Source: Acholoe squamosa (taxonomy: Eukaryota > Annelida > Polychaeta > Phyllodocida > Polynoidae). From it: a stretch of DNA of 64,000 nt. Both the position numbers and the translations under genes were made by a program. Every line of letters starts with the position of its first letter. Position 1 is the stretch's first letter. Positions 36,071-57,535 of the stretch are shown here, one piece after another. Under the pieces are notes generated by a model, which saw only the letters and a list, made by a program, of their open reading frames with translations, made no database searches and was not told the origin of the DNA. The stretch covers positions 74,745,972 through 74,809,971 of the forward strand of contig OX439040.1 of the NCBI GenBank assembly GCA_949317995.1, read 5' to 3'.

Positions 36071-36171
36071 AAAAACATGAAGTGCAGTGAGGCGTGATGA
36101 GTAGCTAATTCCGACTCTCCGGGGGAAATCGGGGAAAATCTCCTGCATCCATCAAGTTTAAGTCTGCAAGT

Positions 36172-36902
36172 TACGGAGCCCCTAATAGGACATACCAAAA
36201 ATAATTTTTTCACCAAAAAAATATTCTTGCGGATGCACAAATAATTCTTGTGGGTGCACAAATAATTCTTGCGGGTGCACAAATAATTCTTGCGGGTGCA
36301 CAAACATTCTTGCGGGTGCACAAATAATTCTTGCGGGTGCACAAACATTCTTGCGGGTGCACAAATAATTCTTGCGGGTGCACAAACATTCTTGCGGGTA
36401 CACAAAGTACTCTTGCAGATGCAGAAGTATTTCATGCAGTTAAAGGAAGATGATTTGTGTACCCACGCAAATGTTTGTGCATCTGTAAGAATCTTTGTGC
36501 ATCCACAAGAATTATTTTGAGTATCGGCAAGAATGTTTTGTGGACCTGCAAGAATTATTTTGTGTACCCGCAAGAATGTTTTGTGCATCCGCAAGAATTA
36601 TTTTGTGCACCCGCAAGAATTATTTTGTGTACCCGCAAGAATTATTTTGTGTACCTGCAAGAATGTTTTCTGCATCCGCAAGAATTATTTTGTGTACCCG
36701 CAAGAATTATTTTGTGAAACCACAAAAATGTTTTGTGCATCCACAAGAATTAGTTTGTGTACCCGCTAGAATTTTTTGTGCATCTGCAAGAACTTTTGTG
36801 CATCCACAATATTCCTGTACCCGTAAGAATTGTCAAGTACCTGCAAGAATATTTTTTCTCCAGAAAATCTTTTATTTGGGATGTCCTATTAGGGGCTCCG
36901 TA
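36172..36902. mobile_element. Foldback element, copy 1
   Basis: TACGGAGCCCCTAATAGGAC at the left end is matched by the reverse complement at the right, which ends in AGGGGCTCCGTA. Both ends are flanked by GCAAGT (36,166-36,171 and 36,903-36,908), a 6-bp target duplication. The arms consist of a minisatellite whose unit is about 22 bp, consensus AATTCTTGCGGGTGCACAA plus two or three bases: about 10 units in the left arm, and about 18 in inverted orientation in the right arm. There is no protein gene; the long frames seen here are translations of the repeat. The structure fits Foldback-type elements. Confidence 0.9.
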
Positions 36903-37043
36903 GCAAGTACAGTCAAAATTACAAAAGAATCATCGTAGATCACTATTACAGTATTTTTTCAACGGAAATCCAAGGAACAAGGCTGGATTTTATGATTTCA
37001 AGGAAGGGCACCTTGGGGGCGATAATAGGTGAAATCCTGTGTT

Positions 37044-37220
37044 ATGGAAAACCAAGTGAGGTCGCAGCGGGCTGGAGCCCGGGGGACAAATAAGAAGGAT
37101 GACAAAGGAGAAAAGAAAGATCCAATAACAATTCTGACTGAGCAAATAGCAATTTTCAGAACTGAATTTGCAGAGGGAATGAAAGATAATTCTTGCGGGT
37201 GCACAAACAGAGCACCTTGA
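37044..37220 (+). pseudogene. LINE ORF1 N-terminal stub, tandem unit 1
   Basis: This is the first 58 codons of the same ORF1 that is longer at 41,202. It reads MENQVRSQRAGARGTNKK and so on up to the residues EGMKD, then diverts into 19 bases identical to the foldback minisatellite unit and stops. The following 330 bp of coiled-coil coding sequence are absent compared with the unit at 41,202. It would act as an upstream frame to the open frame at 37,231. The start used is the first ATG; an in-frame GTG lies 15 bases upstream. Confidence 0.7.
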
Positions 37221-37230
37221 AAGGGAGGTC

Positions 37231-38184
37231 ATGAAAAGAAGTTTGCGCTTTGATAATCTAGAGGAGGTCATGAATGAGAATCTGCCAAAGGTGGTAAGAG
37301 ATATAGTTTATGAAATAGGTTATGTGATTGATGTCTCTGACATTACCAAAGTTGCACGAGTGGGCCCCCCATCCAAGAGTCGAGGACGTCCCAAAAATAG
37401 GTCAGTGTCTTGCACCTTTACTTCACAACTTATCAGAGACCGAATCTATGCAAGTCGCACACAGCTCAGAAGGTCTAAGATAGACAGGTTTCAGAAAGTA
37501 TGGGTCAACCCAGAGTTCACAATAGAAGATGGAGAGTACCTTCTGACTCTACGAGGTGTTCAAATGTTAGCCCTGCGTAAATCCCACAAATGCGCCATAT
37601 ACGGAGACACAATAGTCATAGATACTGTACGGTATGAGAGGAGCAAGTTGCACCTATTACCAGAACATCTATCAGTAGAAAACGCCTTTACGGTAGATAC
37701 TCCCAAGGGCGTAGCCTTCATGTCAAAAAATAGCCCCCTCTCAAACTGGGCTACTGCTCCATTCTGGCTAGATGGTGTCTTGGGGAACTCTGTAGAGCAG
37801 TACTACATGTACTCCAAATGCAAATATCATGGAAAAGATGCTATGGCGACTTACATCATGAACATCGAGGATCCATGCCAAATAAAAGCAGCTGGTGACT
37901 CCTTTCCAGCTACACAAATATGGAGAGACGAAAAGCAGATAGAGGTTCTTGAGAAAGGATGCTACGAAAAATTCAGACAAAATCGTAAAATGCTAGAATT
38001 TCTGCAGAAATTCCCAGGACAGCCCTTCATAGAGGCGACCAGGGATTCTAGAATGGCAGCGGGAGTCACCATTTTTTCTAGAGAACTGTTTGAAGGAAGT
38101 TGGACTGGGAAGAATCTCATGGGGAAGGCACTCATGAGAGTCCGAGACCGGCTCGAGGAGATACGCTCGAGGCGTGATGAGTAG
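37231..38184 (+). CDS. NADAR-domain LINE ORF1 fragment, tandem unit 1
   Basis: This is a 317-residue open frame. Residues 1-150 correspond to the RRM-like and C-terminal region of a LINE ORF1 protein (KRSLRFDNLEE, then a basic stretch with RGRPKNRS and a predicted nucleic-acid-binding fold). Residues about 161-309 form a NADAR domain: S171-N172 (SPLSNW), E189-Q-Y-Y (NSVEQYY), K217-AAG, E268-A with D272, and W291-T-G-K-N-LMG-KALMRVR. NADAR proteins bind ADP-ribose or related nucleotides; some members remove ADP-ribose from guanine in nucleic acid. The coiled coil normally in front is lost, and the C-terminal tail is cut at EEI by the tandem junction, adding RSRRDE. The start is the first ATG after the rearranged junction. 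Expression is unproven; it may simply be an open remnant. Confidence 0.75.
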   Translation: MKRSLRFDNLEEVMNENLPKVVRDIVYEIGYVIDVSDITKVARVGPPSKSRGRPKNRSVSCTFTSQLIRDRIYASRTQLRRSKIDRFQKVWVNPEFTIEDGEYLLTLRGVQMLALRKSHKCAIYGDTIVIDTVRYERSKLHLLPEHLSVENAFTVDTPKGVAFMSKNSPLSNWATAPFWLDGVLGNSVEQYYMYSKCKYHGKDAMATYIMNIEDPCQIKAAGDSFPATQIWRDEKQIEVLEKGCYEKFRQNRKMLEFLQKFPGQPFIEATRDSRMAAGVTIFSRELFEGSWTGKNLMGKALMRVRDRLEEIRSRRDE

Positions 38185-38251
38185 CTAATTCCGACTCTCC
38201 GGGGGAAATCGGGGAAAATCTCCTGCATCCATCAAGTTTAAGTCTGCAAGT

Positions 38252-38981
38252 TACGGAGCCCCTAATTGGACATACCAAAAATAATTTTTTCACCAAAAAA
38301 ATATTCTTGCGGATGCACAAATAATTCTTGTGGGTGCACAAATAATTCTTGCGGGTGCACAAATAATTCTTGCGGGTGCACAAACATTCTTGCGGGTGCA
38401 CAAATAATTCTTGCGGGTGCACAAACATTCTTGCGGGTGCACAAATAATTCTTGCGGGTGCACAAACATTCTTGCGGGTACACAAAGTACTCTTGCAGAT
38501 GCAGAAGTATTTCATGCAGTTAAAGGAAGATTATTTGTGTACCCACGCAAATGTTTGTGCATCTGTAAGAATCTTTGTGCATCCACAAGAATTATTTTGA
38601 GTATCGGCAAGAATGTTTTGTGGACCTGCAAGAATTATTTTGTGTACCCGCAAGAATGTTTTGTGCATCCGCAAGAATTATTTTGTGCACCCGCAAGAAT
38701 TATTTTGTGTACCCGCAAGAATTATTTTGTGTACCTGCAAGAATGTTTTCTGCATCCGCAAGAATTATTTTGTGTACCCGCAAGAATTATTTTGTGTACC
38801 ACAAAAATGTTTTGTGCATCCACAAGAATTAGTTTGTGTACCCGCTAGAATTTTTTGTGCATCTGCAAGAACTTTTGTGCATCCACAATATTCCTGTACC
38901 CCCAAGAATTGTCCAGTACCTGCAAGAATATTTTTTCTCCAGAAAATCTTTTATTTGGGATGTCATATTAGGGGCTCCGTA
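38252..38981. mobile_element. Foldback element, copy 2
   Basis: It is carried within tandem unit 2. It has the same GCAAGT flanks (38,246-38,251 and 38,982-38,987) and the same minisatellite arms as copy 1, one base shorter. The TIR pair here is slightly mismatched (CTAATTGGACAT against the ATGTCATATTAGG side). It was duplicated with its host unit and is not an independent insertion. Confidence 0.9.
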
Positions 38982-39122
38982 GCAAGTACAGTCAAAATTA
39001 CAAAAGAATCATCGTAGATCACTATTACAGTATTTTTTCAACGGAAATCCAAGGAACAAGGCTGGATTTTATGATTTCAAGGAAGGGCACCTTGGGGGTG
39101 ATAATAGGTGAAATCCTGTGTT

Positions 39123-39299
39123 ATGGAAAACCAAGTGAGGTCGCAGCGGGCTGGAGCCCGGGGGACAAATAAGAAGGATGACAAAGGAGAAAAGAAAGAT
39201 CCAATAACAATTCTGACTGAGCAAATAGCAATTTTCAGAACTGAATTTGCAGAGGGAATGAAAGATAATTCTTGCGGGTGCACAAACAGAGCACCTTGA
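39123..39299 (+). pseudogene. LINE ORF1 N-terminal stub, tandem unit 2
   Basis: It is identical in translation to the stub at 37,044-37,220, including diversion into the 19-base minisatellite unit and the same stop. The shared rearrangement shows that the coiled-coil loss preceded the tandem duplication. Confidence 0.7.
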
Positions 39300-39309
39300 A
39301 AGGGAGGTC

Positions 39310-40263
39310 ATGAAAAGAAGTTTGCGCTTTGATAATCTAGAGGAGGTCATGAATGAGAATCTGCCAAAGGTGGTAAGAGATATAGTTTATGAAATAGGTT
39401 ATGTGATTGATGTCTCTGACATTACCAAAGTTGCACGAGTGGGCCCCCCATCCAAGAGTCGAGGACGTCCCAAAAATAGGTCAGTGTCTTGCACCTTTAC
39501 TTCACAACTTATCAGAGACCGAATCTATGCAAGTCGCACACAGCTCAGAAGGTCTAAGATAGACAGGTTTCAGAAAGTATGGGTCAACCCAGAGTTCACA
39601 ATAGAAGATGGAGAGTACCTTCTGACTCTACGAGGTGTTCAAATGTTAGCCCTGCGTAAATCCCACAAATGCGCCATATACGGAGACACAATAGTCATAG
39701 ATACTGTACGGTATGAGAGGAGCAAGTTGCACCTATTACCAGAACATCTATCAGTAGAAAACGCCTTTACGGTAGATACTCCCAAGGGCGTAGCCTTCAT
39801 GTCAAAAAATAGCCCCCTCTCAAACTGGGCTACTGCTCCATTCTGGCTAGATGGTGTCTTGGGGAACTCTGTAGAGCAGTACTACATGTACTCCAAATGC
39901 AAATATCATGGAAAAGATGCTATGGCGACTTACATCATGAACATCGAGGATCCATGCCAAATAAAAGCAGCTGGTGACTCCTTTCCAGCTACACAAATAT
40001 GGAGAGACGAAAAGCAGATAGAGGTTCTTGAGAAAGGATGCTACGAAAAATTCAGACAAAATCGTAAAATGCTAGAATTTCTGCAGAAATTCCCAGGACA
40101 GCCCTTCATAGAGGCGACCAGGGATTCTAGAATGGCAGCGGGAGTCACCATTTTTTCTAGAGAACTGTTTGAAGGAAGTTGGACTGGGAAGAATCTCATG
40201 GGGAAGGCACTCATGAGAGTCCGAGACCGGCTCGAGGAGATACGCTCGAGGCGTGATGAGTAG
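39310..40263 (+). CDS. NADAR-domain LINE ORF1 fragment, tandem unit 2
   Basis: This is a 317-residue frame whose translation is identical to that at 37,231-38,184. RRM-like region at 1-150, NADAR at about 161-309 with the SN, VEQYY, EA..D and W.G.N..G..LMRVR signatures intact. It is preceded by the same disrupted N-terminal stub and ends in the same RSRRDE extension created by the tandem junction. The frame is intact in both duplicates while the only copy with a complete N-terminus (41,202) is broken in its NADAR. Recency of duplication is enough to explain the identity; no selection is implied. Confidence 0.75.
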   Translation: MKRSLRFDNLEEVMNENLPKVVRDIVYEIGYVIDVSDITKVARVGPPSKSRGRPKNRSVSCTFTSQLIRDRIYASRTQLRRSKIDRFQKVWVNPEFTIEDGEYLLTLRGVQMLALRKSHKCAIYGDTIVIDTVRYERSKLHLLPEHLSVENAFTVDTPKGVAFMSKNSPLSNWATAPFWLDGVLGNSVEQYYMYSKCKYHGKDAMATYIMNIEDPCQIKAAGDSFPATQIWRDEKQIEVLEKGCYEKFRQNRKMLEFLQKFPGQPFIEATRDSRMAAGVTIFSRELFEGSWTGKNLMGKALMRVRDRLEEIRSRRDE

Positions 40264-40330
40264 CTAATTCCGACTCTCCGGGGGAAATCGGGGAAAATCT
40301 CCTGCATCCATCAAGTTTAAGTCTGCAAGT

Positions 40331-41060
40331 TACGGAGCCCCTAATTGGACATACCAAAAATAATTTTTTCACCAAAAAAATATTCTTGCGGATGCACAAA
40401 TAATTCTTGTGGGTGCACAAATAATTCTTGCGGGTGCACAAATAATTCTTGCGGGTGCACAAACATTCTTGCGGGTGCACAAATAATTCTTGCGGGTGCA
40501 CAAACATTCTTGCGGGTGCACAAATAATTCTTGCGGGTGCACAAACATTCTTGCGGGTACACAAAGTACTCTTGCAGATGCAGAAGTATTTCATGCAGTT
40601 AAAGGAAGATTATTTGTGTACCCACGCAAATGTTTGTGCATCTGTAAGAATCTTTGTGCATCCACAAGAATTATTTTGAGTATCGGCAAGAATGTTTTGT
40701 GGACCTGCAAGAATTATTTTGTGTACCCGCAAGAATGTTTTGTGCATCCGCAAGAATTATTTTGTGCACCCGCAAGAATTATTTTGTGTACCCGCAAGAA
40801 TTATTTTGTGTACCTGCAAGAATGTTTTCTGCATCCGCAAGAATTATTTTGTGTACCCGCAAGAATTATTTTGTGTACCACAAAAATGTTTTGTGCATCC
40901 ACAAGAATTAGTTTGTGTACCCGCTAGAATTTTTTGTGCATCTGCAAGAACTTTTGTGCATCCACAATATTCCTGTACCCCCAAGAATTGTCCAGTACCT
41001 GCAAGAATATTTTTTCTCCAGAAAATCTTTTATTTGGGATGTCATATTAGGGGCTCCGTA
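40331..41060. mobile_element. Foldback element, copy 3
   Basis: It lies in the leader of the longest ORF1 copy. GCAAGT flanks at 40,325-40,330 and 41,061-41,066. Same length (730 bp) and the same terminal mismatch as copy 2. It separates the start of the LINE leader from the ORF1 start region. Confidence 0.9.
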
Positions 41061-41201
41061 GCAAGTACAGTCAAAATTACAAAAGAATCATCGTAGATCA
41101 CTATTACAGTATTTTTTCAACGGAAATCCAAGGAACAAGGCTGGATTTTATGATTTCAAGGAAGGGCACCTTGGGGGCGATAATAGGTGAAATCCTGTGT
41201 T

Positions 41202-42805
41202 ATGGAAAACCAAGTGAGGTCGCAGCGGGCTGGAGCCCGGGGGACAAATAAGAAGGATGACAAAGGAGAAAAGAAAGATCCAATAACAATTCTGACTGAG
41301 CAAATAGCAATTTTCAGAACTGAATTTGCAGAGGGAATGAAAGATATTCGTGAACTCAAAGAATCTGCCAAGGTATGGAACACCCTAGTTGACAGAATAA
41401 CTGCCGCTGAAAATAATGTCACACTCTTGACAGAGCGGGTATGTACCAATGAAGTCAATGTCAGATCAGTTTCTGACACTGTCACCGGAGTAGAATCATC
41501 AATAACTTATGCAACCAAAGACATTGATGCACTTAGAACTGAACTGGAGGTGAAAGAAAAAAGAATAGCTGGTAATGAGGAAGAGCTGGGAGATCTTCGT
41601 TATATGATAAGCATGCTAAACAAGCGCCAAGATCATATAGAGAAGGAGATGTCAAGTGACATCGAGTCCCGAGTCACAGAGCACCTTGAAAGGGAGGTCA
41701 TGAAAAGAAGTTTGCGCTTTGATAATCTAGAGGAGGTCATGAATGAGAATCTGCCAAAGGTGGTAAGAGATATAGTTTATGAAATAGGTTATGTGATTGA
41801 TGTCTCTGACATTACCAAAGTTGCACGAGTGGGCCCCCCATCCAAGAGTCGAGGACGTCCCAAAAATAGGTCAGTGTCTTGCACCTTTACTTCACAACTT
41901 ATCAGAGACCGAATCTATGCAAGTCGCACACAGCTCAGAAGGTCTAAGATAGACAGGTTTCAGAAAGTATGGGTCAACCCAGAGTTCACAATAGAAGATG
42001 GAGAGTACCTTCTGACTCTACGAGGTGTTCAAATGTTAGCCCTGCGTAAATCCCACAAATGCGCCATATACGGAGACACAATAGTCATAGATACTGTACG
42101 GTATGAGAGGAGCAAGTTGCACCTATTACCAGAACATCTATCAGTAGAAAACGCCTTTACAGTAGATACTCCCAAGGGCGTAGCCTTCATGTAAAAAAAT
42201 AGCCCCCTCTCAAACTGGGCTACTGCTCCATTCTGGCTAGATGGTGTCTTGGGGAACTCTGTAGAGCAGTACTACATGTACTCCAAATGCAAATATCATG
42301 GAAAAGATGCTATGGCGACTTACATCATGAACATCGAGGATCCACGCGAAATAAAAGCAGCTGGTGACTCCTTTCCAGCTACACAAATATGGAGAGACGA
42401 AAAGCAGATAGAGGTTCTTGAGAAAGGATGCTACGAAAAAAATTCAGACTAAATCGTAAAATGCTAGAATTTCTGCAGAAATTCCCAGGACAGCCCTTCA
42501 TAGAGGCGACCAGGGATTCTAGAATGGCAGCGGGAGTCACCATTTTTTCTAGAGAACTGTTTGAAGGAAGTTGGACTGGGAAGAATCTCATGGGGAAGGC
42601 ACTCATGAGAGTCCGAGACCAGCTCGAGGAGATACCCTCTCACACTCCATCACCTGCTACATCTAGAGCTTCATCTCCCCCTCCCCTGCTCACACCTATT
42701 GCACAGCCTGCTCACCAGCCTACTCCGCAATCTGTCCCACAGCCTGCTCAACAAGCTGTTGGAGGCGAGCCCAATCATAATACCCGAGTAAAAGAAGATG
42801 AGTAG
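41202..42805 (+). pseudogene. LINE ORF1 with coiled coil, RRM-like region and NADAR, broken
   Basis: This is the complete-length ORF1 of the plus-strand LINE. From ATG 41,202: a basic N-terminus (SQRAGARGTNKKDDKGEKK), a coiled coil of about residues 40-165, an RRM-like region, a NADAR domain and a Pro/Ser/Gln-rich tail (TPSPATSRASSPPP) not present in the tandem copies. Two lesions disable it: a TCA codon of the tandem copies is TAA at 42,192-42,194, at the very start of NADAR, and two extra A in an A-run near 42,436-42,442 shift the frame. Both fall in or just before NADAR. An in-frame GTG 15 bases upstream lengthens the frame, but ATG is the likely start. The architecture is the usual LINE ORF1 (trimer-forming coiled coil plus RNA-binding region) with NADAR added. 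Confidence 0.85.
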
Positions 42806-44560
42806 GTAGGAATAACTCCACTACAATGAAGTAAGTTCAACGCACCTCCCCCAGGTAAAAACATTAACTCAGATCACCGTCATGTTTATAAACACTAGCA
42901 CGTGAGCCTCTTCAACCTAGCCAATAGGGAGCCTCCTCCTCTGTGTCCAATCCTCGCGCCAACTTGAACACGCCCACCTGAAGCTGACCAATCGCAGCGA
43001 CGGACGCTGTCATTCAAGGCACCATCGAAATAATCGCTGCTACCAGCGGCCCTCTTCCTCTCCCTATTATCGCTCAGACGAGCACGTGGACTAAAACGCC
43101 CAGACGATCGCCACCAAAATATTCTGAAGCCTGCAGTAAAATTTAAGACCTACAGTTGAAACCTTAACAACGGCTCTCTACCTGCTATGTCTACACTATC
43201 TGCAGCCCAAAACATGGTGCTCCTGTCATACTAGTGCTTGGCATGATCAAGTTGTCATATGAGAAATATCATAAGACTAGTGGTATATGGTGTAATTATC
43301 TCAAGGCTCTTATAAATAGTGTTATTTCCAGTTGTCACTGGTTTATTCCGCTTTAGGCAACATGTAAGAAATATCAATCATACAGTAGTTAGTATGCAGG
43401 TAATTTGTACATACAGTAAATATACAGTAATTTATAAAGTACAATGTTCAGTTCCACTCCACCTGTGAGGTATTAATAATACAATGTCCAGCATAGTTCT
43501 AGGTGGGTTCCCACACCTAGCTCCTGACCTGCTGTTTAGAGGAATAATGTAATAATGAATAACTTTACCCTCTGGTGGAAGTCTTGAAGAAGATAGCCCC
43601 TGGCCACTAATGATAGAAAACCAATGCCTGTCTAGCATAGTTTCACCATAGTGCAGTGGTATAGCAGGTAGCAGGAGATGACTGGAGATGTTACCTCTAG
43701 AGCGGTTCTTGGTGATCTGTTTTCCTGGAGGTGCAGACAGGCTATTTGTAGCAAATCTTGGAAAAGCACCTCCAGACTGACTGGAGCCAGCAGCATCTGC
43801 CTAACTCTACAATTGTTTGAGGGGTGTCTTTCATGTGTCACAGGGGGACAAAGGACCCCCATGGATGCCGCTATGCCCCCCATTGTCTTGGTCGGTTCTG
43901 CATCTTCAAACCCTCATAACTCGGTCGTTTACGCGTGTATAACTGCCATTTTGGGCATGCGCGGAGTTGAATATGCCAAGTTTATAATGCCCGCTGGATA
44001 GGCGCGTAACTCGCGCCGGTTTGTCTGTAGTGCACTCGGAGCTCCTTTCAGTCTCCATGGCATAACTTCCTTAATAATGGGAGTTCCGCCTTGATCTTGA
44101 TATTTGACCTAGCTCGCTCAGGAGCGACGCTAGAGCGACCGGACGGTTATGGCGTCGTGCTTATGTAACCCATTGTTCAGTTATTAGAGTGCTCAGACAC
44201 TCATGACGGCGTCAGCGGTGCTCAGGCACCCGTGACGGCCGGTTGCATTCACTTACAAGTTATTAATTTGTGCATTGAACCATGAGGTCGCACACTGAGA
44301 CCCTTATTCTTATTATATTGTGCAGTGAACCATTAGGTCGGAGCCTTTGATGTCATAAACTCTGTCTAACTGACTGTGGCTGGTGTGCAGTGGGGCATGA
44401 ACGCTCTTATATAAAGTTTGAGCGCTCTTATAGCTATGTATTAATTTCATAGATATTCTTTGATTTATACAATAATATGTTAGAATTTATGGAATAATAA
44501 AATGGTATATCACTCCACAGTGAACAAAGCGCTACATCTTCCCCGGTAAGAAGAGTACAA
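42806..44560. other. Stretch between plus-strand ORF1 and an unassigned ORF
   Basis: No protein domain was recognised. 42,880-43,090 is more GC-rich than its surroundings and contains CCAAT-type phrases (CCAATAGG, CCAATCGC). CCCCCAGGTAAAA at 42,849-42,860 resembles a splice donor. A 107-residue frame at 43,678-44,001 has no recognisable domain and is not called. Confidence 0.4.
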
Positions 44561-45226
44561 GTGGAAATAATGAGCGATATTAGGGGCGAATTCTTGCAAC
44601 CGGCACTTGATCCCATAGATGAACCAGCAGCTGTGTACACAGTTCTATACAGACCACGACGCACGAGCAGGCAAGTGATAACAGAGGCGATTGGGAGAAT
44701 CACGTCTGGCAATGTAGATAAGATGCTTATCAACGTTGGATTATATGATTTTTGCACCTACGATGAACCCACCGAGCGCAGCCCACTTCCTAAAAATATA
44801 TTCCCTAGGCTGTACAACTCTGACGAGCTATGCAGCCAGATTCAACAGGAATTATACACCCTGGATGATATGGTAGATCAACAAGTGCAACCGGGAGCCT
44901 TGGTCTGGCTTCCCATAGTAGGGGCCAAATCGTCACCTTGGCCAAACAAAGGCAAATCCACAGCCAGCCCTGACTTGCAGGGGATAATAAATAGTGCTCT
45001 CATTACAGCCAATGATAGCTTCAGTCAATTTAATGAAGTCAGAGGGCTTCCCACCCCTCCACTCCAATTTCCTATTCATTACCAGTCAGGCTCAGTCTGG
45101 CACCATGATTACAGTAAACTACATTACAATATGATACCCACTGCCCATATTATTACCTTCTGGGCAGATGCCATCGACCAGTATATAGCATCTTGGCTTA
45201 CCTCAGTTGTAAGCAGAAACAACTAA
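44561..45226 (+). CDS. Unassigned ORF, 221 codons; possibly SGNH-hydrolase-like
   Basis: This is an open frame of 221 codons. The annotated start may be a non-initiating codon; the first ATG, at 44,571 (MSDIRGEF), gives a slightly shorter product. I do not firmly recognise the protein. Weak hints of an SGNH/GDSL fold: a hydrophobic strand then LINVGLYDF (block III-like), LVWLPIVG as a later strand, and near the C-terminus WHHDYSKLHYN followed by WADAIDQYI, resembling the Asp-His block. No clear GDS serine block is visible, so if related it is either N-terminally incomplete or inactive. SGNH domains do occur in some LINE and tyrosine-recombinase retroelements, so an origin in a mobile element is plausible. 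It lies inside the composite insertion, upstream of the minus-strand LINE's 3' end. Confidence 0.5.
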   Translation: MEIMSDIRGEFLQPALDPIDEPAAVYTVLYRPRRTSRQVITEAIGRITSGNVDKMLINVGLYDFCTYDEPTERSPLPKNIFPRLYNSDELCSQIQQELYTLDDMVDQQVQPGALVWLPIVGAKSSPWPNKGKSTASPDLQGIINSALITANDSFSQFNEVRGLPTPPLQFPIHYQSGSVWHHDYSKLHYNMIPTAHIITFWADAIDQYIASWLTSVVSRNN

Positions 45227-45286: not shown

Positions 45287-45502
45287 ATATTCAATTCTAT
45301 GCTATTTCTTCCTACATAGTATCTTGAAAATCATAGAATGTCAGGGGCATAACTGAAGCTCATCATATGGAATATCTAATTACAGCTATCATATAAATTG
45401 CCTGATACGCTCTTGTAACTCATCAGGGACTATATATATGTATATTGCCTGATACACTTACAGCTAATATGATTTTTGTCAATATAAGTCAAGTAGTCAA
45501 CA

Positions 45503-45575
45503 GTATGATTAACATGTCATAGTACAGATCAGATACCACAATATGATTAACATGTTATAGTACAAATATAATGGG
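45503..45575 (+). repeat. Two direct copies of a roughly 40-bp unit
   Basis: ATATGATTAACATGTTATAG and its near copy GTATGATTAACATGTCATAG, each followed by TACAnAT, sit side by side. No gene is present. The surrounding 45,290-45,800 is A/T-rich and probably includes the 3' end of the minus-strand LINE, which I cannot place exactly. Confidence 0.55.
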
Positions 45576-45808
45576 TTACTGACATTTGTATATATGATAC
45601 TCCCTGGAAGAGATACAAAGTTCAGGCTGATAAGTTATGGTATTGCCTTCAGGACCTGTTATGATAGCAATACCATTTAAATCAAAAAACCATAAAATAT
45701 ATAGCAGTGACATATCCCACTCCCACTAAAAAAAAATAAATTATAGAAAAAAAAACAAGTTAAAAACCCTTTTTACATTATATGATATATAAGTTTTTGC
45801 GTTGAGTT

Positions 45809-48480
45809 TTAAGTCAGTGGCCTCAAAAGATCCTTTTTTATTTCAGCTTTAAAATAATCTATGTCAAGAATATTTCTGATTTCTGGGGGGAGTGCATTCC
45901 AACTCTGCCCACAAAATACTTCAGGACTACGAGAGTACGATACCAATTTAATATGATCATACTTTAATACAGGTGCTGAAGAAAATCTAGTAATTCTAGC
46001 TCTGTTTGTCACAAATTCCGGATTTTTTGCTCTTTTGAAACCTTGGACTTTCGAGTGATACACTCTTCTATCCTTCAAAAAAGGAATGTTTGTCTGGGTA
46101 TGAATATACTGTGTGGGTGTTAAGATATGGGCATTTAAACAAGTTTTTATACATTTATTTTGTAGCCTTTGCAGTTCACTAATCAATGTGTCTTTGGCAC
46201 CATGATAAAGAATATCGCAATAGTCTATTACCTGTAGAATATGAGTTTTGTAAATCCTTAATCTAGCCTCTATAGACAAACATTTTCTAACTTTGTACAA
46301 TAAAAATGATTTGTATCGTACACTCCTGATGATACTTGAAACATACATATTGAAGTTTAACATTTGATCAAGTGTAACACCTAAATATTTATACGAAATC
46401 ACATTTTTTAGGGTTTTACCATTCAACTTAATATTGGGCTTGGGGAGTTTTTTTAATTTTATCTCAGAAGCAAATACCATGACTTTTGTCTTGGATTCAT
46501 TCATGGTTAACTTATTAGTAGTAGTCCATTGGTAAAAACTATTCAAGGCAATAGAAAGTGCATCACATAATACATTGAAATCCTTTCCAGATACAAACAG
46601 TACAGAATCATCAGCGAACAATAAAGTTTCATGTCTGTTCCAGATCTTACATGGTTAGCTATGGAGCATTGTTGACGCTTGGAAAGGTAATTCTCTATTA
46701 GTGTTAAGTTTCTATTTCTAATGCCATAATTTTCTTTAGTAATATTAAGTAATTAACGGAATCAAATGCCTTTTTTATGTCAATAAAGGCTGCCAGTGTA
46801 ATATTTCCCCTGTTTCTATTACTTAAAATATGGTTTACCAATTTTGAGATAGTATCTAAGGTTGATTTTGATTTTTGGTATCCACCCTGATTTGGTGTTA
46901 AAATTTCATACCTTTCTAAGTGCAACGATATAGCTGTATGTATAAGTCTTTCCAGGATTTTACCTGGAAGGGATAACACACTAATGGGTCTATAGTTAGA
47001 CACGTTCAATGAGTCTCCACCTTTAGGGAGGGGGGTGACTATTGCAATTTTCCAAGCATCAGGAATTTTACCGGTAGAAATACACAATCTGATAATTTTT
47101 ATAAATTTCTGTGGAACTTTCAATACTGCAGCTTTAAAAATATTGGATGGAAGGTAATCAAGTGCTGATGATTTTGAGGTGTCAATATCCCTTAAACAAT
47201 CTATAATTTCATCATCTGAAAAATTAAAGTCTGGCATATCGACTACACATCGTTCCCCAAAGAATCTAAATTCCACATTATGGGCCTCTGCTAATTTGGG
47301 CCCAATACCAGCAAAGAATGAGTTTATAAATTCAGCAGTATTTTCCATTATCACAGCATTTCCATTGTCGTCTGTAAGACTAATTTGCTTAGTTCCAGTT
47401 TTACTATTAGGCATTATATCTTTAACAGTTGTCCAGAATTTCTTAGAGTCTTTGGCATACAGGGCTGAAAGGTCACAATAATAAATTTCTTCGGCTTTTT
47501 TTAATTCATCATTTACACGATTCCTTAGAACTCTAGCTCTATGCCATACAATAATACTCATTGCATTACGAGCCTCTGATAACATGGAATTTTTGTCGTG
47601 AATTAACTCTAATAAATAATTAGTCATCCAAGGCTTGGCCTTATCCTTAACTTTAAAACTTCTTACTGGGCATTGAACATCTAGATATCGTTTCAAAATA
47701 TTTTCAAATGTAGACCATGCTTCTGAACTTTCTGTACAGTTGTCAAAGTAACTCCAATCATGATTTGCAACCTGGTTAACAAATTCAATCATGTTCAGAT
47801 TCTTATAAGACCTGCCAAGGAAGGACCTAAAATTCTTTTTTATTCTTAAGTTCTTTTTTATAAAGTGTATAGGGAGGTGATCACTTAAATGAATATTGAC
47901 TGGCCCTGAGGAAATAATAGATTCACAGTTTGAAAAAATTAGGTCAATACACGATCTAGTACCAGCGTTTTTCATTTGAATTAAACAGTGTATTAACATT
48001 AAAATCTCTAATTAAAAATATATCGTATTGATCTATAGGATCGAATTGAACAATGCTTTAAAAATATTGCAGAAATTAAGCAGTGATCCACTAGGGGGTC
48101 TATACACATTACAAATCACCATCTTTTTATTTAGGCCTTTGATTGATTGTAGCCATTGAACTTCAATATCCGGCTCACATCTATTTAAATGTTTATATAC
48201 ATCTACAGAACAAGTCACCTCGTCGTCTACATAAGCACATAGACCTCCCCCTCTAAAAATGCTCATTCTGTCTTGGCGAAACAAATTATAGTGTGGAAAT
48301 GAATATAGACCTGAATCATTACTATCGTTTAGCCAAGTTTCAGAAAATAATATTATATCGATGCCTTTATTATCTAATTCTTCACCAATACTAGTAAATT
48401 TATTTCTTATACTTCTAGCATTCAAGTGGACAGTAGAGAATCCCCTCCTAAAGTTTACAGAATTATCAGTTGTTGCCTAT
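45809..48480 (-). pseudogene. Minus-strand LINE ORF2: endonuclease and reverse transcriptase, broken
   Basis: Three segments in order: (1) about 48,480-48,033, the APE-type endonuclease N-terminus (FSTVHLNARSIRNK, FSETWL, VYRPPSGS); (2) 47,999-46,704, the endonuclease end (CIDLIFSN, LSDHLPIHF) and RT fingers/palm (RPISVLSLPGKILERLIH, then AAFIDIKKAFDSV with the first catalytic Asp); (3) 46,621-45,809, from FADDSVLF (catalytic DD intact) through the thumb and a C-terminal SWNALPPEIR phrase. Breaks: a frameshift and small loss near 48,010-48,050, where the GDFN motif reads RDFN, and an internal loss near 46,630-46,690 removing the expected G.PQGS..GP block. A stop lies just upstream of 48,480. 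The type is CR1/Jockey-like by EN and RT motifs; a clade needs a tree. Confidence 0.9.
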
Positions 48481-48775
48481 TGTGTAACAATACATTCAAA
48501 GAAGATTGAGGCTGGACATTAGGGAACTCAACAGGTGTGACCATTATTAAAAAATATTTCAAAAAAATCACAGGATATTCCCATACGATTAATACCCCCC
48601 CCATGCATAATTTTCCGGCTCTTAAGGCCAATCATGCTTCCTTGTATGGAGGTAAAAGGCGACTTTCGGCTACAAAGTGACACTATGAAGTATATACAGT
48701 CCTTAACTTACAGTCCTGATGTAGATTAGGTTCATGTACCGGTAGGGTAACTGTCTCAGAAAAAATGTTAGACCA

Positions 48776-50206
48776 TTAAGAAGCTAGTGCTTGGTCATGT
48801 CCTTCAGGAAGCACACTATCTTGTTCACCTTGTTGTTCATCATCTTGCTCATCATCTTGGTCATCATTTTGCTCATCAACCATTTCAGGTTCATCAGATT
48901 TCTGCCGTAGTAGTTCATCTCTTACCCTCATTAGTGTATAGCCATGCAGGTTCTCGCCTTTAGTGTTACCTCGAGTACACAGGTCAGCTTGCCCTAAGTG
49001 CATACGTACCCCCCAAGTCGGGTTAAAACTAGCCTCATATAGTTCCTTGCCCTCCAGGGTTTTCAGGAGCTGGATCATTGATGGGGATGAGAATTTCGCC
49101 TTCAGAACTTTGTACATTGTGGTCTCTGCATTTTTAGTCCATTCTGGTCTCGATTTTATTTTCTTGCCTTCATCCATAATTTGATAAGGGCACGACAGAG
49201 ACATTATGCGTTTGACAGCATTAGGATCCTTGCATTGACTTGCTTTTTTGGACTGGTATGCCTGCTCTGCACAATTGTATGTAGTTCCCTCCATCTCGAA
49301 ATTCTGTATGTACAAATTTGACAGTCGATTGTGATGAGAACGGTACATAACACCATCAGGGGTTATAGCAGTAGTAGCTTTCTCCCTTGTCAGATCAGGG
49401 TGAGGTAACGAGTTCAATTGATGATGACCATATGATTTACCTTGTATAATCACAGCTCTTTGGCGGAGTTGGGCACTGAGTCCCATCCCTTTGGCGTGGA
49501 AATACATGCACCTTACGTCATTGAAACGTTTGTATTTGTTGTCATTCAACTGGTCCCCAACAGATACCTTCTTGTATTCAAAATTATTCTTCAAATTCTT
49601 CAGGTTCTTCATGATTTTTGGCTTCGTGTCTCCTTTTTTTAGTACCACTCGGACCGTGCGGTGTTTACCCTGGGCGCCGCCATCTTGGAATGAAGATTCT
49701 TCGCGATCCACACTTTCGATACACTCGATGTCAAAACTGACTTTAATATCTCTAAAGAATTTACCCATTTTCTCCAGAAGGTTTTCGTCGTTTTGCTCAG
49801 GTAAGCCTTTAATTAGGAGGATTTTTTTCATTTCAGCCAATTCATTTTTTTCGAATTTCTTGGCATGTTCGGTTAGAATCCTAGTTTGGGCTTGTAGCGT
49901 CTTTGTATGTTTGCTCATGGCCTCTTCTGTGGCTGTCATCGTGGAGGCTATACCTTTATATACTGTATCAATGGAAGTTAGCCTTTCTTTGATCCCCTCC
50001 AAGGTTGTATTAGTTGTGGCATTAGTTCCGTTCAGAGAATCAATGGATGACTGTAGCCCCTCGAGCGTTGTTTGCATATTTGACACCTTCTCCTCACTGT
50101 CCATGACTCGTATTGACAGTCGGTTGACTGCTGCTATGACATCGACCAATGTCGCATCCATGGCTAGATTTACTTCTTTTCCTCGTTTACCCCTGCCAGA
50201 CGCCAT
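48776..50206 (-). CDS. Minus-strand LINE ORF1: coiled coil, RRM-like, NADAR
   Basis: This is a 476-residue uninterrupted frame. The start ATGGCG at 50,206 has a favourable Kozak context. Layout: basic N-terminus; coiled coil about 20-120 (repeated heptad-like VSNMQTTLEGLQSSIDSL, TTLEGIKERL); RRM-like region about 126-215 (KKILLIKGLPEQNDENL, TVRVVLKKG) and a C-terminal-domain-like region to about 262; NADAR about 285-433; acidic D/E/Q-rich tail from 437. NADAR signatures: L295-S-N297, A313-E-Q-A-Y-QSKKA, W356 with KAKF, YEAS at 390-393, TWGV at 397-400 and GENL..YTLMRVR at 417-429. The RRM-like part is expected to bind the element's RNA and the coiled coil to multimerise. NADAR family members act on ADP-ribose-type substrates; its job here is unknown. 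It is not close to the plus-strand ORF1, sharing architecture rather than sequence. The downstream ORF2 is broken, so the element is not autonomous. Confidence 0.9.
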   Translation of the reverse strand: MASGRGKRGKEVNLAMDATLVDVIAAVNRLSIRVMDSEEKVSNMQTTLEGLQSSIDSLNGTNATTNTTLEGIKERLTSIDTVYKGIASTMTATEEAMSKHTKTLQAQTRILTEHAKKFEKNELAEMKKILLIKGLPEQNDENLLEKMGKFFRDIKVSFDIECIESVDREESSFQDGGAQGKHRTVRVVLKKGDTKPKIMKNLKNLKNNFEYKKVSVGDQLNDNKYKRFNDVRCMYFHAKGMGLSAQLRQRAVIIQGKSYGHHQLNSLPHPDLTREKATTAITPDGVMYRSHHNRLSNLYIQNFEMEGTTYNCAEQAYQSKKASQCKDPNAVKRIMSLSCPYQIMDEGKKIKSRPEWTKNAETTMYKVLKAKFSSPSMIQLLKTLEGKELYEASFNPTWGVRMHLGQADLCTRGNTKGENLHGYTLMRVRDELLRQKSDEPEMVDEQNDDQDDEQDDEQQGEQDSVLPEGHDQALAS

Positions 50207-50400
50207 GATGAGTATATTCCTTAGTTGCCTGTCCTATTTGTGGAATAATTTACCACAAAATCATGCGTCTTGCACGCTCAGGAACTTTGGTAAACTAGAA
50301 ATTATTTGGAGCCCCGTCTGCCGCGTTTTCACCCCCTCGCCGCCATCTTCTCATTTGAACATAGAAGTGAAAATGCACTTTATTCCAGAGTGCCTTTAGA
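50207..50400 (-). promoter_or_regulatory. Minus-strand LINE 5' leader with YY1-like site
   Basis: Upstream of the ORF1 start, the minus strand reads AAGATGGCGGC at 50,339-50,349, matching the core of the YY1 site that lies near the 5' end of mammalian L1 elements. A second match, CCAAGATGGCGGC, is inside the ORF1 coding region at 49,676-49,688. The true 5' end of the element is not marked by any duplication I could find and is put near 50,400 by inference. Confidence 0.4.
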
Positions 50401-51210
50401 GCTGTGTTGTACCTGGAGGACTGTGGATCCCAGAAGATACACCAAACCAAGGCCTAAATATGTTCTAGAGAATGACAGACTTAACATATAATTTTCAGTA
50501 TTCAGATTAGCACAGCCACAAAATGAACATTCACCCTTGAATTTACAAAGAGAAAAGAACACAACTGAACTAACATGGTTCTCTAATTGGCCTAGGTCAT
50601 TGACGGCACCTCTTTGGTTGAAAATCGAGGATCAGGAATCGGAAACAACTCATGTCGTGTGCATGTTCTAACTTTAGTCATGACATATCTACAGCGACAT
50701 ATAAGCATGTGTGTATTTAAAGAAAGACACCTCTTTCCATGAAAGTCACCTTGTTGTGTATGAAAACTGAGGAAAATGTTCTGATACTGTAAATATGATA
50801 AGAGGATCCCATACTCTACTTATATGCTAGCTTATGTGCCTTAAACAGTGTCACACCTTGTTCCATGTCTGACACTTATGAAATTACAAAAGGCCACTCT
50901 CAAAAGGGAACCTCTCCACGTGTTACAGTTAGAAGTTAATGTTATAGTTAATGTATAAAAATAAAAACACTGATTAAGGTCGAGGGTGGATGACATCAAT
51001 TAACTGTTTTTTATCATGAAGTTAGAAGTAATGGTACTTACTTTCCCTGATCTTCCCCCAGGACCAGCACCCACGACAGGGTGCTCATGGTTTCAGCGCT
51101 TTATGTGTATTATATGTATTATGTGTGTTATATGTATGCTGATGTGAAGTTGTGTTGTCTTTTGTGTAAACCTCAAGCATGGAATTTATTAAGTAGCATT
51201 CCCTCGTCAA
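50401..51210. other. Stretch between the two LINEs
   Basis: No gene was recognised. CTTCCCCCAGGACC at 51,053-51,065 resembles a splice acceptor. The last part (51,060-51,210) is probably the leader of the plus-strand ORF2. Confidence 0.4.
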
Positions 51211-54152
51211 ATGTCTGAATCATCTCCTGTTAGACCCAAAGGGCTCATGGTCATGTCATGGAATGTCCGAAGTATGGTTCATAAAAAAGTAACCCTTAGA
51301 TATTATACATATATACATAAGCCAGATGTGTTCGGATTTTCTGAGACATGGCTTAAACCCGACATGAGTAGTCATTTGAACCAGTTTGATGGTTATACCC
51401 TACACAGACAAGATAGACCTCTCACTGTAGCTGGAGGCGTTTGCATTTTAGTATCACATAAACATGCCCATGAAAGACTGACATACCCGGAAACTAACAT
51501 AATGAATGCGGACTGTGAGCTTCTCACAGTGAGGTTAGCCAGAACAGGATGTAGGCCGGAATTTTTTATACAATTATATAGGCCTAATGAAGGTGATTTA
51601 TCCAGATTTGTTCAGCATGTAACAGCTGCGGTGTCGAAAATCCAAACACTGCACAGAGATCCCTATATATATGTCATGGGGGATTTTAATATGGATGTAT
51701 CTCCCTCGGGTATTTCTTCCTCCCATATGGAATTTCTCACCTCCAAATTTCACCTTACACCATATATAACCGACCCGTCTAGGCCTCTATACCATCCAAC
51801 AAATATCATAGACCAAATTTTTTCAAACTCCCCTTTCATTGCGGCATCAGGTACTTATATGACTAACATAAGTGATCATATCCCTCAGTATGTAATCATG
51901 AAAAAAACCAGAGAGAGATACATAAGGGCGGTGTTCAGAGGTAGATCATACAGGAACTATGATGTTGACAGGATAAGGGATGCTATTGATATGCAACGAT
52001 TGTATAGGATTGGGTTGAAAGTGAAAGAAAAAGAGAGTGCGAGTGTAGATAAGTATTGTAATGAATTTTCAGATGTGGTAACGTCCTTAGCTGATGAACT
52101 TTTTCCTGTGAAAGAGTTTAAATTCTCTAAAGAGAAGCCACCATGGCTCACCAATGGGTTACTAGAAATGATGAAAACTAGAGATAAAGCCCTGAGAATG
52201 GTAAAAAAGCGTAGAACTGAGGCAAACATTTTATATGCCAGAGAAATGAGAACCATGACTAAAAATGCTGTTAACAATGCCCAATCTGATTATGTCAAGA
52301 GATTGTTAGAAAGATACAAAACGACTCCAAAGAAGTTCTGGAAAGTTATAGCCGAGTTAATTCCTAAGAAGTTTAAGAGAGCTCCTATAAATCTGGTGAA
52401 TGGTGACATGGACCCTCTTCCCTCGGGGGAAGTGCCTGAACATGTAAACAATTTCTTTGTTGAGGTAGGCCCTACTCTGGCAAATAAGGTTCCGGAAGCA
52501 TCCTCGCCGGGGGGAGGGAGTCTCTGTCATCTTTCCCTGATACTGAAGCCAGTGGTGATTTTTTTAAATTCAGGAAATTCAGAGAAGCTGAAGTACTCAA
52601 ATGTATAAATGATGTTGATATATACAAATCATCAGGAATTCCTGATATATCTGCTAAGCTACTGAAAGATTGTCTGACAATACTCCTGACCCCCTTTACT
52701 GATCTGCTAAATTACTCTATTGAGAAATCGGAATTTCCATCGTTGTGGAAATTAGCAACAGTGGTTCCCATACCTAAGGTTAATAATCCTTCGTCACCTG
52801 ACCAGCTGAGACCTATATCATTATTGCCAGTCCCAGGGAAGATCCTAGAGCGCCTTATTCATTCACAGTTCTACTTATATCTAGAGAAAAATTGCCTCTT
52901 GTCAAAAAGTCAAAGTGGCTTTAGGAAAAACAATGGAACTTTAGACTCAGTCTTTCAGGTGATCGAAGCAGCTCATTGCTCTCTTTCTGAAGATAAAAGT
53001 ATGGGCATTCTTTTTCTTAACTTCACTAAGGCGTTTGATTCCTTGAACCACTCAAAGCTACTAAGTAAACTAAAAAGTTTTAGAATTTCCGACGGGGTTA
53101 TAAACTGGTTCAAGAGTTATCTGAGCTCAAGAGAGCAAAGGACTATCTGTAACAACTCAGTCTCAGGTTGGAAACCGTTAACACATGGCGTACCCCAGGG
53201 ATCAATCTTGGGCCCGCTCTTATTCAACCTTTATGTAAATAACTTGCCCGAGTTAAAAACTGAAAGCACTATTAAATTATATGCCCATGATACTATGATA
53301 TACTTAAACCATCAGGATGCGGAAGTTCTGGGTCATTTATTACAGGATGACATGAATAAAGTAACTCAATGGTGTAATGTAAATGGACTTACCATCAACC
53401 CAGCAAAATCCAAACTGATGATGTTAACCAAAGAGGTTGACCCAGAGCTTCCTAACCTGCTTGTAAGAGATACTGTATTGCAAGAGGTCAAAGTGTATAA
53501 GTACTTGGGAATAAGCATTGATAGCGGTCTCACTTTCATGGAACATTATAAGGAAATGTGTAGGAAAATCCGAAACAAACTGTGGATATATAGAAAAACA
53601 AGAAGCTCTATGGATGATCATTCAGCTCTTGTATTCTTTAAAACAATGATTTTGCCATACTTTGATTACGGATGTGTTTTCTTAACTGGTCTACCGGTGA
53701 CTTGTTATAAAAAACTTCAAGTTAACTGTAATACAGCTTTAAGGATTTGTTTCAAAGTAAAGAGCCCCATTGACTGTCATGTAAAAGAGTTATATAAATG
53801 GGCAAATATTCTTCCTCTAGACTTAAGGCGTATATACTTTCAATTATCTCTCTGCCATAGGCTGGTATTTGCAGGTAAAATTCCCACCCTTCCTTCCACC
53901 GGTACTAGAGCAACAGCAGGACCCATCATCAAACTCCCTGCTTTCAAACTCATGTCCCAGATAAACAGTGGCCCATATCAAGCCGCATCTAGATGGAATG
54001 CCCTGAACTCAGAATTAAGATGGATATTAGACAGAGACGCTTTCTCTGTACAGGTTAAAAGGAGGCTGGGTAGGGTATTCATTGACCAATGGGATCATGA
54101 AACCCCGTTTCTTCTATTTCAAGGAATAGATATTTTAAAAGGTCATGCCTGA
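51211..54152 (+). pseudogene. Plus-strand LINE ORF2: endonuclease and reverse transcriptase, broken
   Basis: Segment one, 51,211-52,608: APE-type endonuclease with WNVRS (N17), SETWL (E46), YRPNEG, GDFN at 157-160, TNIIDQIFSN (D201) and SDH at 221-223, then a linker. A frameshift near 52,505-52,520, in a G-rich run, moves into the second frame; 52,743-54,152 then carries the RT: LRPISLLPVPGKILERLIH, SQSGFRKNNGT, GVPQGSILGP, thumb and a RWNALNSELR C-terminus. The total length of about 980 codons fits the family. Catalytic changes in the RT segment (numbered from 52,743): N93 in LNFTKAFDS where Asp is expected, H182 in YAHD where Y/FADD is expected, and N167 in YVNNL. These should abolish polymerase activity. 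The ORF2 is followed by a 3' UTR and A-tail. Confidence 0.9.
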
Positions 54153-54788
54153 TGAAGGAATAAAATTATTGTATGACTTGAGTTGTATATTAACATGCTT
54201 AAACTTACGATAGACACCAGGCAAAAATATATTCAATCGACACATTTATCAAAACACTCCACAATGTTGTTTCACATATATCTATGCAGTGACATAAATA
54301 GTAATGTGGTTCTCATCACATGTATTGATGCATGTATTACATATGTTACAATAATAACATAATCCGCTATATTTCCATGCTTCCTCCCCCCTTAAGGGTC
54401 ATCCTCATTCTTAAAGACATCATTCCCTCAACGAACAAATTGGTGAATGCGGAGGTGCTGTATGGTGTCTGCATCATGTCCTGTAAAACAAACTTGTTAT
54501 TATTTGTATTGTGAATTCTATGTCCAGTTACATGTCAAATACTGTTATCATGTATTCAATTCCGCTGTGATATTTATTTATTCCTTGATTCTTATCCTCA
54601 ATTACTGTCTTGTTCAAATTATGTATAAGTTGAAGCAAAAGATTGCAGAGTTTTGTATCGTACATGCTTTATTTTTACCCATCAAATATAAGGTGTGTTG
54701 GCTTCACTCGCCGACTGGTTCTATAAGGGTAGACCAGATATTCTGATTGTACAACCAGTTTAATGAAATAAAAATGTCTCAAAAAAAA
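54153..54788 (+). other. Plus-strand LINE 3' UTR and A-rich tail
   Basis: Non-coding, ending TTAATGAAATAAAAATGTCT and then eight A. The AATAAA lies about 16 bases before the tail. The tail abuts the resumed 880-bp repeat unit and so marks the 3' insertion point. A TAGACACCAGGCAAAA phrase near 54,210 resembles the start of the dispersed repeats at 32,618 and 34,366, perhaps by chance. Confidence 0.75.
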
Positions 54789-55299
54789 TATACTCAACCA
54801 TGTAAAGTGGTTGGGAACGGGACAAAGGTGATTGGGAGCAGGATATGATCAGTATATACATATATAGGTGAAATGACATGTAAGGCCCTATATGCACACT
54901 TTCTATGATTTGTGACCGAAGGTATAGTCTGGTAATTAACCCAGGGTAATTAACCTGTATAGAATGAGACTCAATCTACTGTGTATAACAGAAGGGGTAA
55001 CTATATAGCTTCATCTACAGAAATATTATTTGACGCTGTGTTAATCAGAGCGAGTTATTATATGTTACATTCTGTACTAGGTTGTAGTTAAGTACATGAT
55101 GTGACTGTGTTTACTGCACCTCTATATTGACCTGGCTGATCATCTTTCACTTTCAGTATCTCAACATTTATGTAATGGTTATCTAGCCTTTACTCAGAAA
55201 AGGGAATTCATAATAACAAACAAGCAAATTTCAAACACTTCACAACACAGACATCTTCCCCAGAATTTAGTTTCCCCCATGAGAATTTAGTTTCCCGCA
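54789..55299 (+). repeat. 880-bp tandem repeat, unit 2, right part
   Basis: It resumes unit 1 sequence at TATACTCAACCATGTAAAGT and runs to the next unit start at 55,300. It is very similar to 35,213-35,718, with few substitutions. Confidence 0.9.
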
Positions 55300-57360: not shown

Positions 57361-57535
57361 TCAAAAGTTGCATTGAACTCATGATACATAGCCTACATTG
57401 ATTTTCATGTTCTAAAGCTAGGCCAGGACAATTACAAAATTATTTTAGAAAAATTCTGGGGTATAGATTCTAAGGCTAGAATGTGGATAGAGCCCAGGGA
57501 ATAGAGCTCAAGGTGGTGTGCCCCCTACCCTTCTT

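Follow-up and report, generated by a model that had tools for sequence, protein, structure and literature searches.

The locus and its ORF1 protein

A 64,000-nucleotide stretch of the genome of the polynoid annelid Acholoe squamosa (contig OX439040.1, forward-strand positions 74,745,972 to 74,809,971; hereafter the window, numbered from its first letter) was analyzed. On its minus strand the window contains a long interspersed nuclear element (LINE) whose first open reading frame (ORF1) encodes an L1-type protein with a C-terminal NADAR domain. The features of this element are the following:

45475..50349, minus strand: whole LINE copy (blastn to the sister copies L029 and L030, 85–92% identity, in three blocks)
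48776..50206, minus strand: ORF1, 476 aa, uninterrupted
49829..50182, minus strand: coiled coil, residues 9–126, a single continuous helix in the AlphaFold2 model
49373..49828, minus strand: L1-ORF1p-like RNA recognition motif (RRM; residues ~127–220) and region resembling the L1 ORF1p C-terminal domain (CTD; residues ~221–278)
48899..49354, minus strand: NADAR domain, residues 285–436
48779..48898, minus strand: acidic C-terminal tail, residues 437–476, weakly constrained by the ratio of nonsynonymous to synonymous substitution rates (dN/dS)
48033..48476, minus strand: endonuclease-like piece of ORF2, matching the beginning of the L029 ORF2 frame (944 aa)
46704..48011, minus strand: reverse transcriptase (RT) piece of ORF2 (RVT_1 49.1 bits, E 7.2e-13; 62% identical to L018 ORF2)
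45809..46654, minus strand: C-terminal piece of ORF2 with an FADD motif (60.6% identical to L018 ORF2)

The 5′ end of the LINE lies near position 50349, and homology to the sister copies stops at 45475. A preliminary description of this DNA had placed an intact LINE ORF1 of 476 residues at 48776..50206, with a coiled coil, an RRM-like region and a C-terminal NADAR domain, next to an endonuclease/RT ORF2 on the same strand. Its position and length proved exact, and the frame runs uninterrupted on the minus strand; the plus-strand reading of the interval is riddled with stops. The NADAR assignment was upheld by profile and by predicted fold, with Pfam NADAR (PF08719) matching residues 291–432 at 76.1 bits (cut-off 35.1; E 4.9e-21). 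The pieces of ORF2 were found downstream at 48476–45809, although the endonuclease-like piece (Exo_endo_phos 16.2 bits, E 0.009) and the C-terminal piece (RVT_1 25.5 bits, E 1.2e-5) scored below the cut-offs. The word intact thus fits ORF1 but not ORF2 of this copy, which is interrupted and lacks two short stretches present in the sister copies. A 323-aa open frame antisense to ORF1 (49428–50399, plus strand) is probably a by-product of codon composition.

The AlphaFold2 model of ORF1 consisted of a helix (residues 9–126), an RRM-like domain, a CTD-like region and the NADAR domain, the last with predicted local distance difference test (pLDDT) values of 84–98. Structure matching (Foldseek/VIA-align) ranked 8bau, an oomycete NADAR with bound ADP-ribose, and 2b3w (YbiA) first, followed by human L1 ORF1p entries. 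The C-terminal domain therefore has the YbiA/NADAR fold, and the coiled coil followed by an RRM, both recovered as predicted, corresponds to the L1-type (Type II) ORF1. The CTD is less sure: 2ldy and 2ykp align through residue 276–277, but with a root-mean-square deviation of 9.8–13.8. Pfam Transposase_22 (PF02994) gave no match in ORF1 at E 0.01. We conclude that ORF1 is an L1-type protein (coiled coil, RRM and CTD-like region in the same order, with a fold match to human L1 ORF1p) that differs from other Type II ORF1s by an acquired C-terminal NADAR domain and an acidic tail. The protein database search returned one protein for ORF1 and one for the NADAR domain, and a separate alignment query yielded 59 NADARs that were used for fold prediction and for the tree. 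Among these 59 was a metagenomic protein (P0058) fusing NADAR (PF08719) to PF02540, which we take to be an NAD-synthase-type domain.

Sister copies of the element

The genome was searched with ORF1, and 89 of 3587 candidates were scored; all sister-copy sequences were analyzed as found, without repair or joining. The three best matches besides ORF1 itself were 94% identical across all 476 residues, and two of them had no internal stops. These two, L029 and L030, are 99.55% identical over 5156 bp. Their ORF1 and ORF2 frames are 489 and 944 aa long, and an A-run closes the 3′ end. ORF2 of L029 scored above the cut-offs for RVT_1 (113.6 bits) as well as for Exo_endo_phos (25.0 bits; cut-off 24.5), and its ORF1 matched NADAR with 77.4 bits. 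These copies thus show the LINE organization of an APE-type endonuclease and RT in an ORF2 downstream of ORF1, with an A-rich 3′ end. Their near identity and uninterrupted frames suggest that the family was recently active.

NADAR-bearing LINEs in the A. squamosa genome

PF08719 was scanned against the 1.48-Gb genome, and the best 150 of 3224 first-look candidates were scored, a sample that leans to intact copies. All 150 exceeded the Pfam cut-off, and 143 had no stop inside the match. The NADAR copies of the window were not among them, which makes this number a minimum. Because every scored match exceeded the cut-off, the occurrence of NADAR is not due to chance; together with the fold match, this rules out a chance or spurious ORF. 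Two of the 150 (L001 and L002) are stand-alone NADAR frames and probable host genes, a judgment made from their short frames only.

Twenty LINE-like NADAR loci, hand-picked for spread of frame lengths, were fetched. Eighteen of them carry, downstream of the NADAR ORF1, a YADD-containing frame of 150 aa or more. In L023 this downstream RT is part of a second, nested LINE that was inserted into ORF2 of the first. ORF2 of L025 is interrupted by stops and was recognized by similarity, and in L026 no YADD frame of at least 150 aa was found downstream within the fetched stretch.

At least two ORF1 layouts occur among these loci (L017 and L020 were left out of the comparison). The first, coiled coil–RRM–CTD-like–NADAR, was fold-tested for the window ORF1 and recognized by profile similarity in L009, L010, L012–L014, L018, L019, L022 and L024–L027. 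When the 190 residues before NADAR were compared between four groups with hhalign, five of six comparisons matched with probabilities of 94–99%, and the sixth, the window group vs L012/L026, gave no match (0.5%). In the second layout (L016 group), no RRM is recognizable, and by eye NADAR is followed in one frame by an esterase-like stretch, for which Pfam gave only a weak match (E 0.069). This layout is seen at L016:916-3147; the ORF2s of L011, L015, L016 and L028 are 97–99.6% identical.

The RT tree resolved three kinds: a large group that contains both LINEs of the window, L012, and L016, the latter two on long branches. The RT of the minus-strand LINE grouped with L018, apart from L012 and L016. 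L012 has L1-like features and a zf-RVT match of 24.6 bits, just under the cut-off of 27.5. Among solved RTs, which were the only ones compared, L016 is nearest to L1 (96.6 bits vs 70.8 for R2); the L1 and R2 scores were 50.2 and 43.9 bits for L029 and 53.9 and 53.7 bits for L024. The large group may be CR1/L2-like, judging by its motifs (a C-terminal WNxLPxxIR, which we take to be CR1/L2-like). CR1-Zenon elements have undergone a bivalve-specific amplification and have a mean length of 5204 bp (PMC10294476); that this is near the 5.16 kb of L029/L030 is a lead only.

Joint inheritance of NADAR and RT

The NADAR and RT trees, compared by sister sets, agreed in all six comparable sets:

minus-strand LINE of the window + L018
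L022 + L027
L017 + L020
L009 + L010
L013 + L024
L014 + L019 + plus-strand LINE of the window

The sole mismatch was L023, which is explained by its nested second LINE. Because the trees give matching sister sets, an unrelated gene nested in the LINE, in place of a genuine LINE part, was rejected as the source of NADAR. The tree gave no support for a host NADAR gene having been captured recently, as L001 and L002 cluster apart from the LINE NADARs. The latter form six well separated lineages with long branches, compatible with one or several origins; 13 of 47 inner branches of the NADAR tree are open.

Conservation of the active site and selection

Three residues are reported to matter for guanine de-ADP-ribosylation: E43, K50 and E125 in the oomycete NADAR, equivalent to E88, K95 and D171 in E. 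coli C7 (PMC11543638). The K95R form is reported to be active in vitro (PMC11543638). The corresponding codons of the window ORF1 were compared in an alignment of 17 LINE NADARs, two from the window and 15 from the fetched set of 20, with near-copies left out:

49265..49267, minus strand: Glu314 (E43 of 8bau), invariant in 17/17
49244..49246, minus strand: Lys321 (K50 of 8bau), Lys in 15/17 and Arg in 2/17
49034..49036, minus strand: Glu391 (E125 of 8bau, the YbiA-type glutamate), invariant in 17/17

Only 9 of the 152 alignment columns are invariant. The window NADAR thus has the catalytic Glu, the Lys and the charged residue of the last strand that mark the superfamily (E314, K321 and E391). 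With E391 it also has the Glu of the YbiA subfamily at the position occupied by Asp in BC4488 and by His in phage. DarT1-NADAR antitoxins belong to the same hydrolase family but carry the BC4488-type Asp at this position and lie next to DarT1, whereas the frames neighboring the window NADAR are LINE ORFs, with no DarT among them.

Between the window copy and L029, dN/dS was 0.021 in NADAR (22 synonymous and 2 nonsynonymous changes), 0.039 in RRM-CTD and 0.117 in the coiled coil. Against L030, NADAR and RRM-CTD both gave 0.032. The respective values for NADAR and RRM-CTD were 0.064 (43 synonymous and 17 nonsynonymous changes) and 0.073 in L018 vs L025, 0.057 and 0.046 in L035 vs L018, and 0.089 and 0.254 in L032 vs L033. 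The window vs L031 pair, in which dS of NADAR is saturated, gave a dN of 0.173 for NADAR against a lower 0.100 for RRM-CTD. Other dS-saturated pairs were excluded, and L029 vs L030 carries too few changes for dN/dS. For the acidic tail of the window copy, dN/dS was 2.11 vs L030 and 1.94 vs L029, the latter from a small number of changes (2 synonymous, 12 nonsynonymous); other computable pairs gave 0.27–0.68. NADAR is therefore under strong purifying selection. Since the pairs tie or go either way, the constraint on NADAR is similar to that on the RNA-binding part and not clearly greater, and the domain has apparently been kept in working order.

A possible role in removing ADP-ribose from element RNA and cDNA

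NADARs strip ADP-ribose from guanine in DNA (PMC11125620, PMC11543638), and on RNA NADAR was the only one of three tested hydrolase families to remove guanine ADP-ribose (PMC11833690). With NADAR tethered to an ORF1p of the RNA-coating type, its likeliest job would be to clear guanosine ADP-ribosylation from the RNA and cDNA of the element. We tentatively favor, short of an even chance, the reading that ORF1p-tethered NADAR hydrolyzes guanosine-ADP-ribose on these nucleic acids and keeps the RT and the ribonucleoprotein (RNP) unblocked. By analogy with L1 ORF1p, trimers of the protein would coat the element RNA, so that three NADAR active sites per trimer would face first the RNA and afterwards the cDNA. 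ADP-ribosyltransferases (ARTs) of the host or of symbionts would place ADP-ribose on guanosines, and its removal by NADAR would unblock reverse transcription and leave the RNP unrestricted. We infer four elements of this scheme: the NADAR activity, the guanosine substrate on RNA or cDNA, the presence in the RNP, and the opposing host enzyme.

The eraser role, which the preliminary description had put forward as a way to undo host ADP-ribosylation, stays putative but is strengthened by the retained catalytic residues, by the strong purifying selection and by several host PARP-domain genes. The genome gave 37 PARP-domain matches, several of them clustered and in single frames of ~1900–2300 aa. 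The gene clusters lie at C6:5.37-5.44 Mb, C9:57.2-57.8 Mb, C13:37.88 Mb and C16:57.9 Mb; clustered frames span ~1100–2300 aa and often hold two PARP matches each. In six edible clams, a guanine-N2 ADP-ribosylating activity is reported (PMC11209040), and invertebrate RNA viruses carry NADAR (PMC9503650); with the PARP-domain matches, these facts hint at where such marks might come from.

Several observations weigh against the eraser role. PARPs are known mostly for modifying proteins and nucleic-acid ends. On phosphate-end ADP-ribose, NADARs are reported to be inactive (PMC11833690). Four ADP-ribose contacts of 8bau are altered in the window NADAR (K75 to M344, Y84 to R353, R93 to A360, and D130 to a gap), so the substrate or ligand may differ. 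A genome search for the Scabin-like ART (PF22596) gave no matches, as did its controls, which makes it uninformative. NADAR dN/dS was 0.77 in L011 vs L016, on 1 and 3 changes, too few to show constraint, and in L012 vs L026 it was 0.26, equal in NADAR and the rest of ORF1 and again on too few changes.

An active NADAR could instead act on another target, either an ADP-ribosylated protein (ORF1p, ORF2p or granule proteins) or soluble ADP-ribose immune signals. This is rather unlikely. One section of PMC9503650 proposes that soluble ADP-ribose derivatives may be the preferred substrates of viral NADARs, and another that in eukaryotic RNA viruses NADARs act on ADP-ribosylated macromolecules; the PARP-family protein ZAP/PARP13, itself likely inactive, restricts L1 RNPs and recruits active PARPs (PMC4441479), and the genome holds several PARP-domain genes. 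In the cited studies of NADARs (PMC11125620, PMC11543638, PMC11833690), however, the ADP-ribosylhydrolase activity demonstrated was directed at ADP-ribose linked to guanine in nucleic acids, and attachment to an RNA-binding-type ORF1 favors a nucleic-acid substrate.

We also consider it unlikely that NADAR is a binding module of the RNP, directed at a ligand or at capped or NAD-type RNA 5′ ends, with catalysis secondary or absent. The loss of some ADP-ribose contacts in the window family fits such a module, as does SNA-3 of nematodes, which is essential, has three NADAR domains and links the SL1 small nuclear RNP to the CBC-ARS2 cap-binding complex (PMC9303266). However, the catalytic glutamates are invariant across LINE NADARs, and SNA-3 function was likewise impaired by mutating residues homologous to the catalytic ones of YbiA (PMC9303266).

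It is improbable that NADAR is a general N-glycosidase clearing damaged or glycosylated nucleotides, as YbiA acts in riboflavin metabolism, since no metabolic context was seen and NADAR is tied to LINE ORF1s, mostly of RNA-binding type in the groups examined. Although LINE ORF1 domains vary widely (PMC4120745), a passive passenger or purely structural NADAR without its own function is very improbable and is largely refuted by dN/dS (0.02–0.06 in informative pairs, about that of the RNA-binding domain, next to a far freer tail), and the active-site residues are conserved.

If NADAR does erase guanosine ADP-ribosylation, a wider reading becomes possible, which we hold with more reserve: several deeply separate LINE lineages in one animal would encode an RNP-tethered guanosine de-ADP-ribosylase as a counter-defence, and the host or microbes would mark retroelement RNA or cDNA. 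This would mean nucleic-acid ADP-ribosylation of retroelements, as clams with CARP-1-like enzymes could perform. The physiological roles of animal NADARs are described as unclear (PMC11125620), and a catalytically conserved, constrained NADAR on the RNA-binding-type protein of a LINE suggests that guanosine ADP-ribosylation of retroelement RNA/cDNA may be a genuine pressure on invertebrate elements. The finding connects the NADARs of invertebrate RNA viruses, the guanine ADP-ribosylating enzymes of clams and the domain diversity of LINE ORF1s, and is testable with one recombinant protein and the published oligonucleotide assay.

Relation to known NADAR-bearing elements

NADAR-bearing LINE ORF1s have been described before, briefly: the ORF1s of several Tx1 families of Crassostrea gigas appear to contain NADAR, which is mentioned in passing in PMC12477816. 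The same paper reports NADAR in Pol of Gypsy elements of the brown alga Ectocarpus and suggests that such domains could take part in processing the RNA intermediates from which the elements transpose. Among the papers listed from the open-licence literature (subscription papers and preprints being outside its scope), no further report of NADAR in a LINE was found, and NADAR/YbiA is absent from the main texts of a survey of 448 Jockey-superfamily ORF1s (PMC4120745) and a bivalve survey (PMC10294476). The C. gigas elements share with the window a LINE ORF1 with a YbiA-family NADAR; in contrast, the window RT stands apart from the L1/Tx1-like L012 in our tree, which included no Tx1 references. 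The passages on the C. gigas elements give no analysis of catalytic residues, selection or whole-ORF1 structure, and an alignment figure is in the supplement. The Ectocarpus elements are likewise NADAR-bearing retrotransposons, but with long terminal repeats and with NADAR in Pol rather than ORF1. Invertebrate positive-strand RNA viruses, which carry NADAR in polyproteins (PMC9503650), are also RNA-based replicons, but not retrotransposons. The ADP-ribosylhydrolases 8bau and 2b3w share the fold and the equivalents of E43, K50 and E125; unlike them, the window NADAR is fused to a LINE ORF1 and has several ADP-ribose contacts changed.

A second NADAR-LINE and other features of the window

Three further NADAR-coding stretches of the window (37183–38184, 39262–40263 and 42195–42805) lie on the plus strand and belong to another LINE, with these features:

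36089..42805, plus strand: ORF1 region in ~2.08-kb tandem copies, with NADAR frames at 37183–38184 and 39262–40263 and an interrupted one at 41187–42805
44501..45226, plus strand: middle ORF (218–241 aa), 49% identical to the middle ORF of L019, no Pfam match
51193..54152, plus strand: endonuclease-RT ORF2 in two overlapping frames, 51193–52608 and 52488–54152

The frame 39262–40260 matched Pfam NADAR with 81.4 bits, and ORF2 matched Exo_endo_phos (E 3.8e-10) and RVT_1 (E 2.5e-26) and is 55–59% identical to the ORF2 of L014, where ORF1-NADAR, middle frames and ORF2 follow one another. The minus-strand LINE is located between the middle ORF and ORF2 of the plus-strand LINE. A genome search with the left flank of this insertion found no copy other than that in the window. 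The tandem copies at 36089–42639 are ~99% identical, with short internal repeats, and reflect a recent duplication or an assembly effect.

In several NADAR-LINEs, ORF1 and ORF2 are separated by one or two additional ORFs of 210–260 aa, and a GGxND-like motif occurs in many of these:

L009:2952-3740 and 3859-4590
L010:5573-6208 and 4822-5529
L019:5574-6314
L020:3417-4085
L024:5941-6618
window 44501–45226

Most gave no Pfam match; one weak GDSL lipase (E 3.4e-5) and one NarE (E 9.7e-4) match were below cut-off. The best hit of a PDB profile search had an E of 0.2, and a single-sequence fold gave a pLDDT of 37.7. By eye, the catalytic serine seems absent. These ORFs are possibly degenerate SGNH esterases, and the plus-strand middle ORF is suspected to be SGNH/GDSL-like.

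An Rfam scan returned no matches. A search for molluscan haemocyanin was likewise empty, as were its controls. A dispersed repeat of 20–22 bp (GTGGTTGGGAACRGGACA-like) occurs at 54787–57361 in 15 copies plus inverted ones, and the segment 54787–55645 recurs at 35207–36070 with 97% identity.
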